Made by a program: the position numbers and the translations under genes. A stretch of 64,000 bases of DNA from Flavobacterium sp. 5. GTDB lineage: Bacteria; Bacteroidota; Bacteroidia; Flavobacteriales; Flavobacteriaceae. The notes below the pieces were generated by a model that was given only the letters and a program-made list of their open reading frames with translations, was not told the DNA's origin and searched no databases. Below, in pieces: positions 25,232 through 45,717 of the stretch. Within the stretch, counting starts at the first letter, position 1, and the number at the start of each line of letters is the position of its first letter. The DNA lies in NCBI RefSeq assembly GCF_002813295.1, contig NZ_PHUE01000001.1:434001-498000 (forward strand). The letters are read 5' to 3'.

Positions 25232-25328
25232 AGGAGCTATTTCCTGCTGTCCACTATATCTTTCCTGTCCTAAAGAAGGACAGGAAAGGATGCCGTTCCC
25301 ATCAGGGCTAGGGCATCCCGTTTCATAA
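25232..25328 (+). repeat. Structured intergenic repeat, family I, copy 2
   Basis: The flanks match copy 1 at 1841 (GGAGCTATTTCCTGCT on the left, ATCAGGGCTAGGGCATC on the right). The central hairpin is a perfect 12-bp stem (25260-25271 with 25277-25288) of different sequence. It begins about 35 bases after the FAD oxidase stop. The rest of the 532-base gap holds an AT-rich stretch and the nirB promoter. Confidence 0.75.
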
Positions 25329-35890: not shown

Positions 35891-35943
35891 TGATTAATTT
35901 CTAAAACTATAAATTTATATAGATTCTCGGAATTATAGTATTT

Positions 35944-36057
35944 CTCGCGTAAGGGATTGTAGTGGAGCTCTTTTTATATTTGGTGATTTTTCTTCACCAA
36001 ATATAAAAAAGCGGGAACGGAAAGCCCGACCCGACCTTTTTGGGAGGGATACGCCCA
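35944..36057 (-). repeat. Structured intergenic repeat, family II, copy 2 (minus strand)
   Basis: Read on the minus strand it starts GGGCGTA and ends TACGCG; the closing stem is 36050-36054 with 35947-35951. The inner hairpin is a perfect 16-bp stem (35971-35986 with 35994-36009). TCGGGCTTTCCG lies between the two parts. The gap 35782-36400 otherwise holds a terminator and the nitrate reductase promoter. Confidence 0.7.
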
Positions 36058-41600: not shown

Positions 41601-41890
41601 ACGCAATTACAAGAACAATATTCGATAAAACAATACCCTATATTTTATCAACTTACTCAATCCAATTCTCCTATATTCTTATCCTGCACCTATTCTATTA
41701 GCTTTCGCGCTTAAACATTTATCTAATTTACAAAACAGAGAAAACACAATGAATTTAATTTCATAAAAACTGGCAACCCAATTTATGGTTTAATCCCCTA
41801 TCATCAAATAACAAATTCATGAATAAACCATCAGTAAGATACAAAACGACATTCTAAATAGATAATAACTTATTCAAAGATCGTTTTAAG

Positions 41891-42058
41891 GAGACGGAAG
41901 TACGTTTGATGGACACGGAAGCTTGCTTCAAGGAGACGGAAACTTGTATCAGGTCGACGGAAGCATTCATCAGGCTGACGGAAGCTCGTTTCAAGGACAC
42001 GGAAGGTTGCATCAGACCGACGGAAGCACGCATCAGGCTGACGGAAGCTCGTATCAGG
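41891..42058. repeat. 21-bp minisatellite, eight units
   Basis: Eight consecutive 21-base units, each with GACGGAAG or GACACGGAAG near the start and TTCAAG or ATCAGG near the end; a worn ninth unit precedes them. The unit length is a multiple of three, so several frames on both strands stay open, giving 7-residue repeats (plus strand TEARIRL-like, minus strand RASVSLM-like). I do not call a gene here. The gap 41467-42278 otherwise holds only the family II repeat. Confidence 0.85.
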
Positions 42059-42278
42059 GCATTATTCTTTCTTCGGAGCCCCATTTTTACTTGGCGGAGT
42101 ACAAAAAACAGCCAAAATAACTAAAGATACGAGTAACGATTTATAATTTTTAAATTTCTATATTTGATATAAAGCAAAAACTGAGACAAACTTTCGTTAA
42201 TCTACACTAATTTGAGTGTATATGGGAAAGTTTATGGCGCATATAAATGAGTTGGTGGCTATTGGCCCGTAGAAAACG

Positions 42279-42818
42279 ATGAAAAAGAAAATATACTTCA
42301 CTATTTGTATAATTTTGGCATTAATTATATTGCCATTAATCTATTTATTTAATGAACCAAAATTTACATCTGAATATTGGTTACAGAATAAAATTGATAA
42401 AATAAGGTACGAACCAATCAAATTTTGCAAACTTGGATTAAAAAGAATTAAATACCGAATTAATAATAACAATGAAATTAATTTTGAAATTGAAATTAAT
42501 GATTTAGGATTTTTAATAATAAAAAGGAATGGCTGGTATGAAAATAGTAAAGATGTTAAAACATACTATTTGAATTTCAATCCTAGTAAATTTGCCGAAC
42601 TTGAAAAACAGTTCAAAATGCAATTTCCACATTCACATACAGAAAATATAGATGATCATTTTTCAGGCAAATATTTTGAACTCCAATTTTCAGATATAAA
42701 TGAAATAAACAATAATATTGAAGTTGCATATTACAATATTGAACCAGATGAAAACTTTATAGATTTTAAAAACGAAATTATTGAATTGACAAAAGAAACT
42801 TTAAATAACAGCCACTAA
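42279..42818 (+). CDS. Cassette gene 1: membrane-anchored hypothetical protein
   Basis: A 179-residue protein with an N-terminal hydrophobic helix (residues 5-24, IYFTICIILALIILPLIYLF) and a polar, Asn/Lys/Glu-rich remainder that should lie outside the membrane. No family is recognised. The gene occupies a repeat-bounded cassette from 42252 to 42937: the start TTGGTGGCT and the end AGCCACTAA, which includes the stop codon, are near-complementary. The codon use is very AT-rich, even for this genome. Confidence 0.65.
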   Translation: MKKKIYFTICIILALIILPLIYLFNEPKFTSEYWLQNKIDKIRYEPIKFCKLGLKRIKYRINNNNEINFEIEINDLGFLIIKRNGWYENSKDVKTYYLNFNPSKFAELEKQFKMQFPHSHTENIDDHFSGKYFELQFSDINEINNNIEVAYYNIEPDENFIDFKNEIIELTKETLNNSH

Positions 42819-42940
42819 GCCGTTACAAAAGATTTGGGCATTTGACTTAATTTAAAAATGGTTTTGTATTTGGAAAATTTGTGCATAATGGAAAAAACTC
42901 GCATCTTTAATCCCAAACCTCTTGTAGCGCCAAGACGTTG
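42819..42940 (+). repeat. attC-like inverted repeat R1 between cassettes 1 and 2
   Basis: The left arm GCCGTTACAAAAGATTTGGG (42819-42838) pairs imperfectly with the right arm CCCAAACCTCTTGTAGCGCC (42912-42931). The 73-base middle is nearly identical in R1, R2 and R3. A GTT core follows the right arm (42937-42939). It begins directly at the stop codon of cassette gene 1. Confidence 0.8.
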
Positions 42941-42969
42941 GCAGACATTTTACCGCAGAAACGAAAAAT

Positions 42970-43671
42970 ATGAAGAAAAAAATACCTTTACAAATTTTAA
43001 AAACATTAGAACCTTTTTTAAAAAAAGAGTCTACAATTTTTGAAATCATTCCTCAAGATCAATATTTAATTAAGTTTGTCGATAAAGACAAAAAATCAGA
43101 TTTTCATTTTATAATCGAAGAGTTTAAAAACCAACCTGCATTTTCTGTTTTAGTAAATCGTAAACCTCACAGTGATTTAGCGACTAAAATTGATAGAAAA
43201 TGGGTTAATGTAAATCTTTTAGAAAAAGAGTTTCAAAGTTGGGTAAATATCTTGGAAGAGTACGACAATATAAAATCCATATTTGATGACAATATTGTAG
43301 AAGCATTTGCAAATGAATATTATACTGAATTTGAAATTATTGATGAAGATGCCGGAATAAATCCATTAAAGGTCAAGCAAATTCTATTATTAGATGAACA
43401 TTTAGAAAAAATTCAAAATAATATTGAAAAATATAAGACTGAAAAGAATGAAGCTGAAATTGACAATATTATAAATGAAGTAATTGAATTAAGAGAAAAC
43501 TTAACCAAAAAATCAAAAAAATGGGTAATTAAAAAATTATCCTTGGTTTGGGGAAAAATATCTAAACAAGGACCAATTTTAATAAAGGAGTTTTTATCCG
43601 AAACAAGTAAATACTTAATAAAAGAAAGCGTGAAATTTATAGTCGAAAAAGGAATAGACTTATTGCCTTAA
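42970..43671 (+). CDS. Cassette gene 2: hypothetical protein
   Basis: A 233-residue soluble protein with no signal peptide. The middle (LDEHLEKIQNNIEKYKTEKNEAEIDNIINEVIELRENL) is a long charged helix, probably a coiled coil, and the C-terminal 50 residues are an amphipathic helix region with repeated KESVKFIVEKG-type segments. No family is recognised. It is the only gene between R1 and R2, as expected of a single-gene cassette. Confidence 0.6.
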   Translation: MKKKIPLQILKTLEPFLKKESTIFEIIPQDQYLIKFVDKDKKSDFHFIIEEFKNQPAFSVLVNRKPHSDLATKIDRKWVNVNLLEKEFQSWVNILEEYDNIKSIFDDNIVEAFANEYYTEFEIIDEDAGINPLKVKQILLLDEHLEKIQNNIEKYKTEKNEAEIDNIINEVIELRENLTKKSKKWVIKKLSLVWGKISKQGPILIKEFLSETSKYLIKESVKFIVEKGIDLLP

Positions 43672-43685
43672 ATAAAAAAACGACA

Positions 43686-43807
43686 GCCGTTACAAGAGAT
43701 TTGGGCATTTGACTTAATTTAAAAATGGTTTTGTATTTGGAAAATTTGTACATAATGGAAAAAACTCGTTTCTTTAATCCCAAACCTCTTATAGCGCCAA
43801 GACGTTG
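43686..43807 (+). repeat. attC-like inverted repeat R2 between cassettes 2 and 3
   Basis: The left arm GCCGTTACAAGAGATTTGGG (43686-43705) pairs imperfectly with CCCAAACCTCTTATAGCGCC (43779-43798). It ends in GACGTTGTGCGAC, and the next gene starts within 10 bases of the GTT core (43804-43806). Confidence 0.82.
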
Positions 43808-43813
43808 TGCGAC

Positions 43814-44401
43814 ATGCTTAAAAAACTGCTTATGAAATTTATTTTTTTAATTACTTTTTGTTCGCTAATTACATTTGGAAAACTCTTTGCATCAAACGAT
43901 TCAATAATTTCACTTCGATTAAATGAATTGAAATCGAAAGGTATTAATAATAGTTTTGTCATGGAAACTTATTCTACAGGATGTCATTGTTGCGGAACAA
44001 ACGATAATTGCAATTACGAATCATCACAAATCTATTTTTTTTGGCGTGATAAAGACAAGGACTTTATCCAAACATATAACAAATGTGGTTCTCCCATAAA
44101 AGCTATTCACAATAAGGTTTTTGATTTTTATCTTCAAAACCGAAAGACGATTTTAAAAGAAGAAGTGAAAAGCTATCTAATCTCAGAGAAAGATGGATTA
44201 GTAATGGAATTAATAATTGACGATTCTCGCCATGTAAAATTTTATCTGGGAGCTGGAGAAAAATATATCGTAAAAGAATATGATGCTTATCAACTTACAA
44301 ATATGGAAAACGACCAACCTAATCAAAATTTCGAACGAAATAATTCATTAAAATTGGTAAAATTGCAAAAGTCAATTGATGATTTAATCAATACTCAATA
44401 A
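43814..44401 (+). CDS. Cassette gene 3: exported cysteine-containing hypothetical protein
   Basis: About 195 residues. The ATG at 43814 is used; the TTG at 43805 lies in the recombination core and is an unlikely start, and ATG 43832 gives a neater signal peptide (MKFIFLITFCSLITFGKLFA). The mature part has a cluster GCHCCGTNDNC that could form disulfides or bind a metal. No family is recognised. The first bases of its cassette (TGTGCGAC) are the exact complement of its last bases (GTCGCACA, at 44409-44416). Confidence 0.65.
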   Translation: MLKKLLMKFIFLITFCSLITFGKLFASNDSIISLRLNELKSKGINNSFVMETYSTGCHCCGTNDNCNYESSQIYFFWRDKDKDFIQTYNKCGSPIKAIHNKVFDFYLQNRKTILKEEVKSYLISEKDGLVMELIIDDSRHVKFYLGAGEKYIVKEYDAYQLTNMENDQPNQNFERNNSLKLVKLQKSIDDLINTQ

Positions 44402-44416
44402 TAGCAAGGTCGCACA

Positions 44417-44538
44417 GCCGTTACAAGAGATTTGGGCAAAAGGCTGAATTTAAAAATGTTTTTGTACTTGAAAAATTTGTGCATAATGGAAAAAACTCGC
44501 CTCTTTAATCCCAAACCTCTTGTAGCGCCAGAACGTTG
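44417..44538 (+). repeat. attC-like inverted repeat R3 between cassettes 3 and 4
   Basis: The left arm GCCGTTACAAGAGATTTGGG (44417-44436) pairs with CCCAAACCTCTTGTAGCGCC (44510-44529). The GTT core is at 44535-44537, within GAACGTTGTGCGAT. The middle differs at a few bases from R1 and R2. Confidence 0.82.
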
Positions 44539-44578
44539 TGCGATAGCTTCCCAAAAAGCACGAAAATGAATTGAGCAA

Positions 44579-45619
44579 ATGAAAAATCTTTATGCTTACA
44601 ATGAAGAAAATGAATTAATTCATATTAATAACGTTGAAAAAAAATCAGCACAGAATTATTTTTGCATTAATTGTGAAAGTAAAATGATTGCAAGAAAAGG
44701 CGAAATAAAAGCTCATCATTTTTCTCATAAAGCTGATAGCAATTGTAGTTTTGAAAGCTATTTACACAAATTAAGTAAAATTCAATTTTACAACGAATAC
44801 ATAAAATGTCTTAATAACAATGAAAGTTTTAATATTCAATATAAAACTTATAGAAATTGTACTTCTTGCAAAGAAAAAGAAAACCTAAATTTAGTTTGCA
44901 AACTTGACGATAAAATAAGTTTATTAAATTTAACTAAATGGTTTGATAAGATTACAATAGAAAAATATCACAATGGATTTATTGCGGATATTTTACTTGA
45001 GTCTTCAAAAAGCGAAGAAAAACTCTTTATCGAATTTGCTGTTTCTCATAAATGTGAAATAGCAAAAATTGAAAGTAAAATTAGAATTGTTGAAATAAGT
45101 TTAATCAATGAATTAGATTTGAAATTTATTAGCGAAAGGAAAATACCTATTAATCAAGAAAATATAATATTTCACAACTTTATAATAAATCAAAAAAATG
45201 AAGATTATTTTTTACCAAATGAATGCAACAAAATGTTTAGTTTCTTTGCAATTTATCAGAACAATAAAGCAATAAGCAAGGAATTAAGAATTAAAGAAAT
45301 AATCTATAATTTAAACATTCACAATTACAAACATTTTCAAATCTTAAAACCAAAAGAAATAGATTATGAATATGATGACGAAATAGAAAGTTATAGTGGT
45401 GGACAATTTATTGATTTAATAATTAAATCAGCCTTTGAAATTAAAGATTTTAAAAATTGTTATTCTTGTAGATTTTCAGCAGAAAACAATAATTATTTTT
45501 CACGCTATGAATTTGGACATACCCTTTTTTGCAAAAAATTTAAAGCAGTAATTACCAATTCAAACGATGGACATAATTGTGAAAAATATTGGAGAATTGA
45601 AAAACCGAACATAGAATAA
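44579..45619 (+). CDS. Cassette gene 4: CoiA-like nuclease-family protein
   Basis: A 346-residue protein. Residues about 20-60 form a zinc-finger-like head typical of CoiA-like proteins (YFCINCESKMIARKGEIKAHHFSHKADSNC). Residues about 130-175 have a PD-(D/E)xK nuclease pattern: FIADILLE, then LFIEFAVSHKCEIAKI. The C-terminal third contains another cysteine group (NCYSCRF, C at the end). CoiA is linked to processing of DNA taken up in transformation; a defence or DNA-repair role is equally possible for this relative. It fills the last cassette. Confidence 0.72.
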   Translation: MKNLYAYNEENELIHINNVEKKSAQNYFCINCESKMIARKGEIKAHHFSHKADSNCSFESYLHKLSKIQFYNEYIKCLNNNESFNIQYKTYRNCTSCKEKENLNLVCKLDDKISLLNLTKWFDKITIEKYHNGFIADILLESSKSEEKLFIEFAVSHKCEIAKIESKIRIVEISLINELDLKFISERKIPINQENIIFHNFIINQKNEDYFLPNECNKMFSFFAIYQNNKAISKELRIKEIIYNLNIHNYKHFQILKPKEIDYEYDDEIESYSGGQFIDLIIKSAFEIKDFKNCYSCRFSAENNNYFSRYEFGHTLFCKKFKAVITNSNDGHNCEKYWRIEKPNIE

Positions 45620-45634
45620 AACCATCACACAACA

Positions 45635-45717
45635 GCCGTTCCAAGATATTTGGACATTTGGCTAATTTTAAAGATAGTTTTGTATTTGTAAAACTGTGGA
45701 TTTCGAAAACAAAAAGC
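45635..45717 (+). repeat. Truncated attC-like repeat R4
   Basis: Only the left arm and half of the middle remain (GCCGTTCCAAGATATTTGG onward, then ATTTGGCTAATTTTAAAGAT). The right arm and GTT core are missing. It marks the right end of the cassette array, just before the VOC gene. Confidence 0.65.

Follow-up and report, generated by a model that had tools for sequence, protein, structure and literature searches.

Four genes in Flavobacterium sp. 5 look like gene cassettes of an outlying platform in a large integron-like system

We analysed a window of 64,000 nucleotides (C1:434001-498000) of the Flavobacterium sp. 5 genome, which is 4.97 Mb long and forms one contig. Judging from the sequence, four genes in this window very probably belong to a satellite platform of a Bacteroidia integron-like system. 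The platform would consist of a promoter-like leader, an attI-like site and four cassettes, and one recombinase, encoded 127 kb upstream, would move the cassettes. The system looks like a large, overlooked form of gene shuffling in Flavobacterium and its relatives, and these four genes look like mobile cassettes on one of its outlying landing sites. It is apparently integron-like in its working, yet fails some defining tests of the integrons that use the integrase IntI.

All four genes of the window cluster lie head to tail on the plus strand (positions of this cluster are those of the window, all others those of the genome). The cluster starts at 42251/42252, where an attI-like site (42199..42253, plus strand, profile E-value 5.4e-9) has its crossover between G 42251 and TT 42252. 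Cassette 1 (42252..42937) carries a gene for 179 amino acids (42279..42818), cassette 2 (42938..43804) a gene for 233 (42970..43671), cassette 3 (43805..44535) a gene for 195 (43814..44401, with an alternative TTG start at 43805), and cassette 4 (44536..45703), whose right end is lost, a gene for 346 (44579..45619). Each gene is followed by an attC-like repeat. R1, R2 and R3 are near-identical copies of 131 bases, beginning at 42818, 43685 and 44416, with R2 94% and R3 87% identical to R1; their crossover G positions are 42937, 43804 and 44535. Of the fourth copy, R4, only the left half is present (45629-45703). A first-pass annotation of this DNA had described the same outline, with a repeat behind each of four head-to-tail genes, a truncated R4, breakpoints at these three positions and no recognised family for the first three products, and all of this stands. 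In a Pfam scan of the four proteins products 1-3 match no family above the cut-off, while the fourth has a CoiA N-terminal domain. Rfam gives nothing for the repeats at the gathering threshold, and the four proteins match only themselves in the set of sequences compared. A 27-base pattern of the right arm, with at most 3 mismatches, has 77 matches in the whole genome and the reversed-pattern control has 0; hence the repeats of the window are not due to chance.

The window cluster is one of seven in this genome, a main array and six satellites, and an attI-like site heads each of them. A search of the genome with R2 gives 40 scored places, mostly upstream at 353-411 kb, and a profile search over 258 kb of the genome gives 98 attC-like sites. 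The main region (352421-426148) holds 83 of these: 73 on the plus strand up to 413 kb, eight on the minus strand at 414-424 kb and two on the plus strand beyond. Outside it lie a partial site at 332 kb, the four sites of the window, a group of four at 529-531 kb and two groups of three, one near 2.82 Mb and one near 4.23 Mb; the right-arm pattern revealed two further clusters, at 3.30 and 3.77 Mb. The core consensus is GTTRNNNGNNA, with GTT at 90 of 94 starts and GTTR at 89. The core of known integrons, R', has the consensus GTTRRRY, and chromosomal superintegrons are known from Vibrio; only 7 of the 94 starts here read GTTRRRY. The first-pass annotation was right that the core is non-canonical, but the GTTGTGC it named is just one of many variants around the array core GTTRNNNG.

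Several traces point to cassette movement. Eighteen duplicate cassettes, in eight groups and 498-967 bases long, are identical within their groups except for one copy (98.4%), and their edges lie at ACG^TT. No two duplicate copies are followed by the same neighbour. The upstream neighbours differ within 60 bases in every group; the last 36 bases are shared throughout one group and by two copies of a second. In most groups each upstream attC variant, with its loop of 63 or 73 bases and its own bases in front of ACG, remains attached to the cassette upstream, and identity begins exactly at TT. Moreover, in the satellite at 2.824 Mb the cassette directly after attI is 99.9% identical over 959 bases to the main-array segment 407509-408466, and the next cassette (2,823,740) is identical to three main-array copies; in the cluster at 3.77 Mb two stretches match the main region at 98%. 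Both the duplicate edges and the attI junctions place the crossover at G^TT, as in integrons. Within this genome the breakpoints fall at the GTT core, away from which the first-pass annotation would have counted them against its cassette array; that array is borne out by these exact edges, by the main-array cassettes at a remote attI and by the pairing described below.

Homologous recombination between the repeats of about 130 bases might also move cassettes, with no site specificity involved. Most repeats are indeed alike (at least 91% identity with R2 in the list of 40), and there is one tandem duplication of a cassette. However, in most groups the upstream attC variants stay put while identity starts exactly at TT, and homology to attC is not required for insertion at a remote attI; we have rejected this explanation as very unlikely. 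Still less credible, to the point of being negligible, is a spread of repeats like miniature inverted-repeat transposable elements or repetitive extragenic palindromes behind genes, with immobile cassettes. It would fit repeats that are numerous and palindromic, but it leaves unexpected the end-to-end pairing of each unit, the whole-unit duplicates cut at G^TT, the attI-cassette junctions and the presence of one recombinase family alongside in many species. The first three of these contradict it, and it was rejected.

If the units are excised as circles, each attC must be able to pair, by its left flank, with the beginning of the unit to which it belongs. Over 86 cassettes the left flank pairs with its own cassette start at a mean of 10.88 of 14 positions and with the next start at 6.83. 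Own-start pairing is better in 73 cassettes, equal in 5 and worse in 8, and 2000 permutations give a mean of 6.82 and a maximum of 7.47. The same test was made on relatives. There the means over 72 cassettes (19 loci) are 11.08 for the own and 7.39 for the next start, with 61 better, 3 equal and 8 worse, and the permutations reach a mean of 6.91 and a maximum of 7.375. The pairing of R'' with R' in the free cassette, a mark of integrons, is thus found here. Among the 75 cassettes with a preserved YAACA core, the predicted hairpin of the circular form is lower in energy than the one made with the next start in 69, equal in 3 and higher in 3, the means being -29.5 and -22.1 kcal/mol. A site finder typed as a regular expression yielded only 28 sites with weak pairing (own start better in 6 of 15, equal in 5, worse in 4), and the profile hits were used instead.

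For a consensus fold we took 59 cassettes with the YAACA core and a score >60, which gave 51 unique sites. Ten positions of the R stem pair, five of them with 3-4 pair types, each at 34 to 51 of the 51 sites, so that the stem shows covariation, and the bottom strand is predicted to be the more stable at all 51. In IntI integrons extrahelical bases mark which strand is recombined. The fold here has mismatches and a 5:1 loop; in this prediction a single-base bulge in the L stem is not seen.

In their present state the sites of the window fold only modestly better than shuffles. The bottom-strand z-scores are -0.92 for R1, -1.90 for R2 and -3.00 for R3, and those of the top strand 0.27, -1.15 and -1.42. 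Their left cores are damaged as well. R1 (42805..42939) pairs with the start of cassette 1 minus two bases of AACA, and R3 (44403..44537) pairs with its own start only if two lost AACA bases are allowed for (ungapped 6/14), both partly judged by eye. In R2 (43672..43806) the match to its own start is lost, now at 5/14, and R4 (45621..45703) is cut, with an intact left core (CACACAACA) and its right half missing. All four lie on the plus strand. With the left cores of R1-R3 damaged and R4 without its right half, the cluster looks mostly stranded now.

The main attI (349498-349552) lies behind the recombinase gene, and its satellite copies are at 476199 (window 42199), 531887, 2824891, 3308155, 3777460 and 4231726. 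The attI profile was seeded from the first four sites; those at 3308155, 3777460 and 4231726 are non-seed sites. Iterated, it finds attI in 61 of 80 stretches downstream of the relatives' recombinase and in 0 of 79 upstream, mostly beginning 36-51 bases past the stop codon. As in integrons, attI is thus placed between the recombinase and the first cassette, both in this genome and at 61 of the 80 loci. A simpler reading of attI places GTT in 62 of 80, followed by R in 57 and by RNNNG in 46, with some picks visibly wrong. In 53 rows (nine dropped) two overlapping palindromes of nine pairs covary, paired at 0.776 and 0.774 against 0.473 and 0.509 with the arms shuffled, figures that ignore relatedness and concern pairs preselected at >=65% paired.

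The leader upstream of attI contains 21-base tandem repeats (GACGGAAG...; 41872..42058 of the window, plus strand). It is common to four of the six satellites, namely those of the window, of 2.824 Mb (regular), of 4.231 Mb (less regular) and of 3.308 Mb (degenerate). A predicted promoter-like element, TTTA...TATATTTG (42140..42166, plus strand), stands 5' of the attI of the window, and TATATTTG recurs about 40 bases 5' of attI in five of the six satellites. Promoters of Bacteroidetes are of the type TTTG/TAnnTTTG, and by its sequence we regard the satellite leader with TATATTTG as promoter-like. A query of leader plus attI has matches, some of them short, in 79 of 299 same-genus genomes. We note that related genes of about 220 amino acids lie about 370 bases upstream of two satellite attI (L244:10585-11280 and L019:12284-12955), with 76.7% DNA identity over 703 bases.

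The gene that heads the main array is the best match of this genome to the IntI profile. It encodes a tyrosine recombinase of 347 amino acids (C1:348404-349447) and lies about 3 kb before the first site (352421); a tyrosine recombinase gene thus stands beside the array, as expected of an integron. A tblastn search of a 218-kb stretch with this protein returns only 348404-349444, and the recombinase was found at the main cluster alone of the seven, with no second copy in the stretches searched. The first-pass annotation had called the window cluster integrase-less, which is correct locally but overlooks the recombinase before the 83-site array 127 kb upstream and the attI-like site at the start of the cluster. 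Both the repeat and a tyrosine recombinase, which it suggested seeking in this genome and its relatives, are present there. Six residues, R204, K229, H294, R297, H320 and Y329, are invariant in 24 aligned sequences, and by motif we take them to be catalytic.

By the tests made, this protein is probably not an IntI, and of the two guesses in the first-pass annotation its Bacteroidetes analogue proved the better. The IntI-specific additional domain (patch III, or I2) is absent from it and from nine relatives and present in the 13 IntI aligned, and the I2 region is also missing against the IntI4 structure 2a3v. The protein scores 201.3 bits with TIGR02249, against a curated cut-off of 265, and so fails the test for IntI; with the Xer model NF040815 of NCBIfam it scores 215 bits (cut-off 220). 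The best solved structures by sequence and by fold are XerA and other Xer proteins (5hxy, 4a8e), the fold search covering residues 68-341. The protein has about 70 additional residues at its N-terminus, and the model has a mean predicted local distance difference test score (pLDDT) of 82.8 and a predicted template modelling score (pTM) of 0.52. In a tree the recombinase falls outside the sampled IntI clade (support 98/94 for its family and 100/98 for IntI), with long branches and IntI sampled from this phylum only.

The recombinase occurs widely. At E <= 1e-60 it is found in 155 of 299 same-genus genomes, this one included. At the same threshold 133 of 295 same-class genomes have a hit; the weaker of these hits, with about 40% identity, may represent other recombinases. 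Of the 299 same-genus genomes 165 contain attC-like DNA. The 80 loci examined in relatives come from the best 80 of 552 relatives, in Flavobacterium, Frigoriflavimonas, Pelobium, Algoriphagus and further genera, with metagenome bins making up many of them. At these loci the iterated attC profile gives 129 sites downstream (40 loci), two upstream, where the sequence was twice as long, and none on the minus strand. Contig ends lie within 2.5 kb on the downstream side of 44 of the 80 loci and on the upstream side of 7, as expected from long repeat arrays. In six single-contig genomes 36, 33, 21, 19, 9 and 4 sites follow the recombinase and attI within 40 kb, those of any one genome all on the same strand; the shuffled control gives 0. 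Two Chryseobacterium plasmids carry the recombinase and attI, one of them attC as well, and one plasmid copy is labelled by NCBI 'site-specific tyrosine recombinase/integron integrase'. R2 itself has no match among plasmid and phage records. By sequence, recombinase, attI and attC are associated over many species of the class Bacteroidia. As separate observations, a Chryseobacterium oryzae plasmid encodes a second tyrosine recombinase (L231:12156-12818), 38% identical and annotated beside an IS91 family transposase, and canonical IntI is above the cut-off in 84 of 296 genomes sampled across the phylum, nearly all outside the class of the window.

In one relative, G030, the anchor gene of the window locus (90.5% identical) is followed by the recombinase (71% identical), attI, one cassette and an attC, after which the contig ends. 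The locus has thus been home to an integron in one relative. Eight other species that possess the anchor gene (L222-L229) show no attC, attI or recombinase in the 4-18 kb examined, L227 ending about 1.5 kb past the anchor. In Flavobacterium sp. 5 the locus is an attI platform without a recombinase. It may have lost its integrase or may be a dedicated satellite; the latter is favoured because the leader is shared.

Two readings of the whole system are to be weighed. It might be a canonical integron, whose IntI has secondarily lost the insert, and the genes of the window then a plain cluster of attC sites lacking integrases (CALIN), which remained when its integrase was lost. In favour of this, attI, attC and cassettes follow the same logic as in integrons, G030 has a recombinase-attI-cassette-attC unit at the window locus, and passages of PMC8138268 describe the insertion as 'not fully conserved' in an integron-like subgroup, where members without the insert may already be binned. 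The recombinase, however, is below the IntI cut-off (201 vs 265) and outside the sampled IntI clade, and the leader upstream of attI in four of six satellites, with no recombinase remnant found near, gives the impression of an independent platform; we consider the canonical origin rather unlikely. Alternatively, and this we put forward tentatively, as a possibility with somewhat less than an even chance, the system would be a second integron lineage, with a Xer/XerA-like recombinase that lacks the IntI insert and handles folded attC by other means. It would be distributed, with one recombinase for seven attI platforms, most of them with a promoter of their own, and plasmid forms exist. Such a lineage would mean that integrons arose twice, or before the insert. 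The seeming absence of both I2 and the L-stem single-base bulges is mutually consistent, as far as the predicted fold goes.

We suggest the following mechanism for the integron-like system. The single recombinase at the head of the main array would recognise attI, and attC folded as a single strand, of which the bottom one is predicted to be more stable, and would bind the paired R and L arms of the folded strand. Cassettes would leave as circles through a crossover inside ACG^TT and enter attI in cis and the satellite attI in trans, the exchange most likely taking place at G^TT in the manner of IntI. We infer both that this recombinase does the recombining and that attC works in a folded, single-stranded form. 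That the units behave as cassettes we read from their boundaries, their pairing and the near-identical cassettes shared between clusters.

Several points weigh against this reading. Recombination itself was not observed. R1 in its present state folds no better than many shuffles. Own-start pairing is not the better one in 13 of the 86 cassettes; of these, four carry a second type of attC missed by the profile, and several others are outlying or window sites. The minus-strand block of eight sites at 414-424 kb has no attI head; we count it as a putative inverted piece of the main array. An open reading frame (ORF) of at least 60 amino acids is lacking in 19 of the 86 cassettes (for example C1:378005, 379488 and 398598), including the most duplicated one, and in 7 of the 67 cassettes that have one the longest ORF runs against the array, in its direction in the other 60. 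Both profiles, that of attC and that of attI, were refined by iteration on the very loci that then supplied the counts, which inflates the totals but not the asymmetry of strand and side. Finally, the I2 insert, which passages of PMC9668308 call necessary for IntI activity, is absent from the recombinase; either its task falls to a different part of the protein, or the reaction is not the same.

With IntI integrons the system shares a recombinase, attI, a long same-strand array, attC hairpins with R pairing to the own cassette and crossover at G^TT. As in Treponema integrons (PMC3607928), the integrase gene is oriented as the cassettes are. Unlike in IntI integrons, there is no IntI-specific insert, the core is GTTRNNNG, the R stem has about 10 pairs, the predicted consensus fold lacks the L-stem single-base bulge, one genome has several attI platforms and the protein has about 70 extra N-terminal residues. 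With at least two attC sites and no nearby integrase, R1-R3 plus the partial R4 are CALIN-like, a CALIN (PMC9024848) being likewise a set of attC-bounded cassettes with no integrase near; the window cluster differs in its own attI and leader. Xer recombinases act at dif sites; in contrast to XerA and the other Xer proteins that match best in structure (5hxy, 4a8e), the gene here heads a cassette array with attI. Extracts of PMC4792948 tie the I2 insert to extrahelical bases and describe CTXphi integration, in which a recombinase without I2 acts on a folded strand without extrahelical bases, as is only predicted here; CTXphi uses the host XerCD and, unlike the system here, has no cassette array.

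Integrons are on record for Bacteroidota, according to parts of PMC8618304 and PMC2426708, and the IntegronFinder 2.0 paper (PMC9024848) names one complete integron of this phylum, that of Salinibacter ruber M1. Surveys recognise integron integrases by the IntI-specific domain (excerpts of PMC2426708 and PMC9668308), and hence a system without this domain would be passed over. Among the papers listed by searches of the open-licence literature of PubMed Central (PMC), preprints aside, none describes the system in its title or the start of its abstract; in PMC4322650 'attC' is a misspelt name of a strain collection. If the reading is true, Bacteroidota from the environment and from fish hold a large pool of cassettes that has so far been missed, and the need for the I2 insert in single-strand recombination becomes directly testable by the comparison of two natural systems.

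As for the cassette content, 64 ORFs of at least 70 amino acids were listed and four more crossed stretch edges. The scan covered 61, after four were left out (three in duplicate cassettes, one overlong) and one window gene was added. They include 24 Pfam families with one or two proteins each, among them Hfx_Cass5 (an integron cassette protein family), HepT, PIN, Gp49 and Fic, and several cassette proteins match models of candidate defence systems. The first main cassette encodes a C5 methylase and a protein with an NgoFVII C-terminal domain. The second type of attC, missed by the profile, closes a 523-base cassette at C1:355690, 364005, 370680, 372727 and 374177, in tandem at 374177. Six outlying attC-like sites (near 414734, 421447, 424163, 426084, 530520 and 2820490) read ...CATAGGA before GCCG in place of AACA, which resembles a 5-base insertion. 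Elsewhere in the window the Flavo-1 RNA family has three matches above the gathering score, at 1845-1922 and 25236-25313 on the minus strand and at 35942-36035 on the plus strand.

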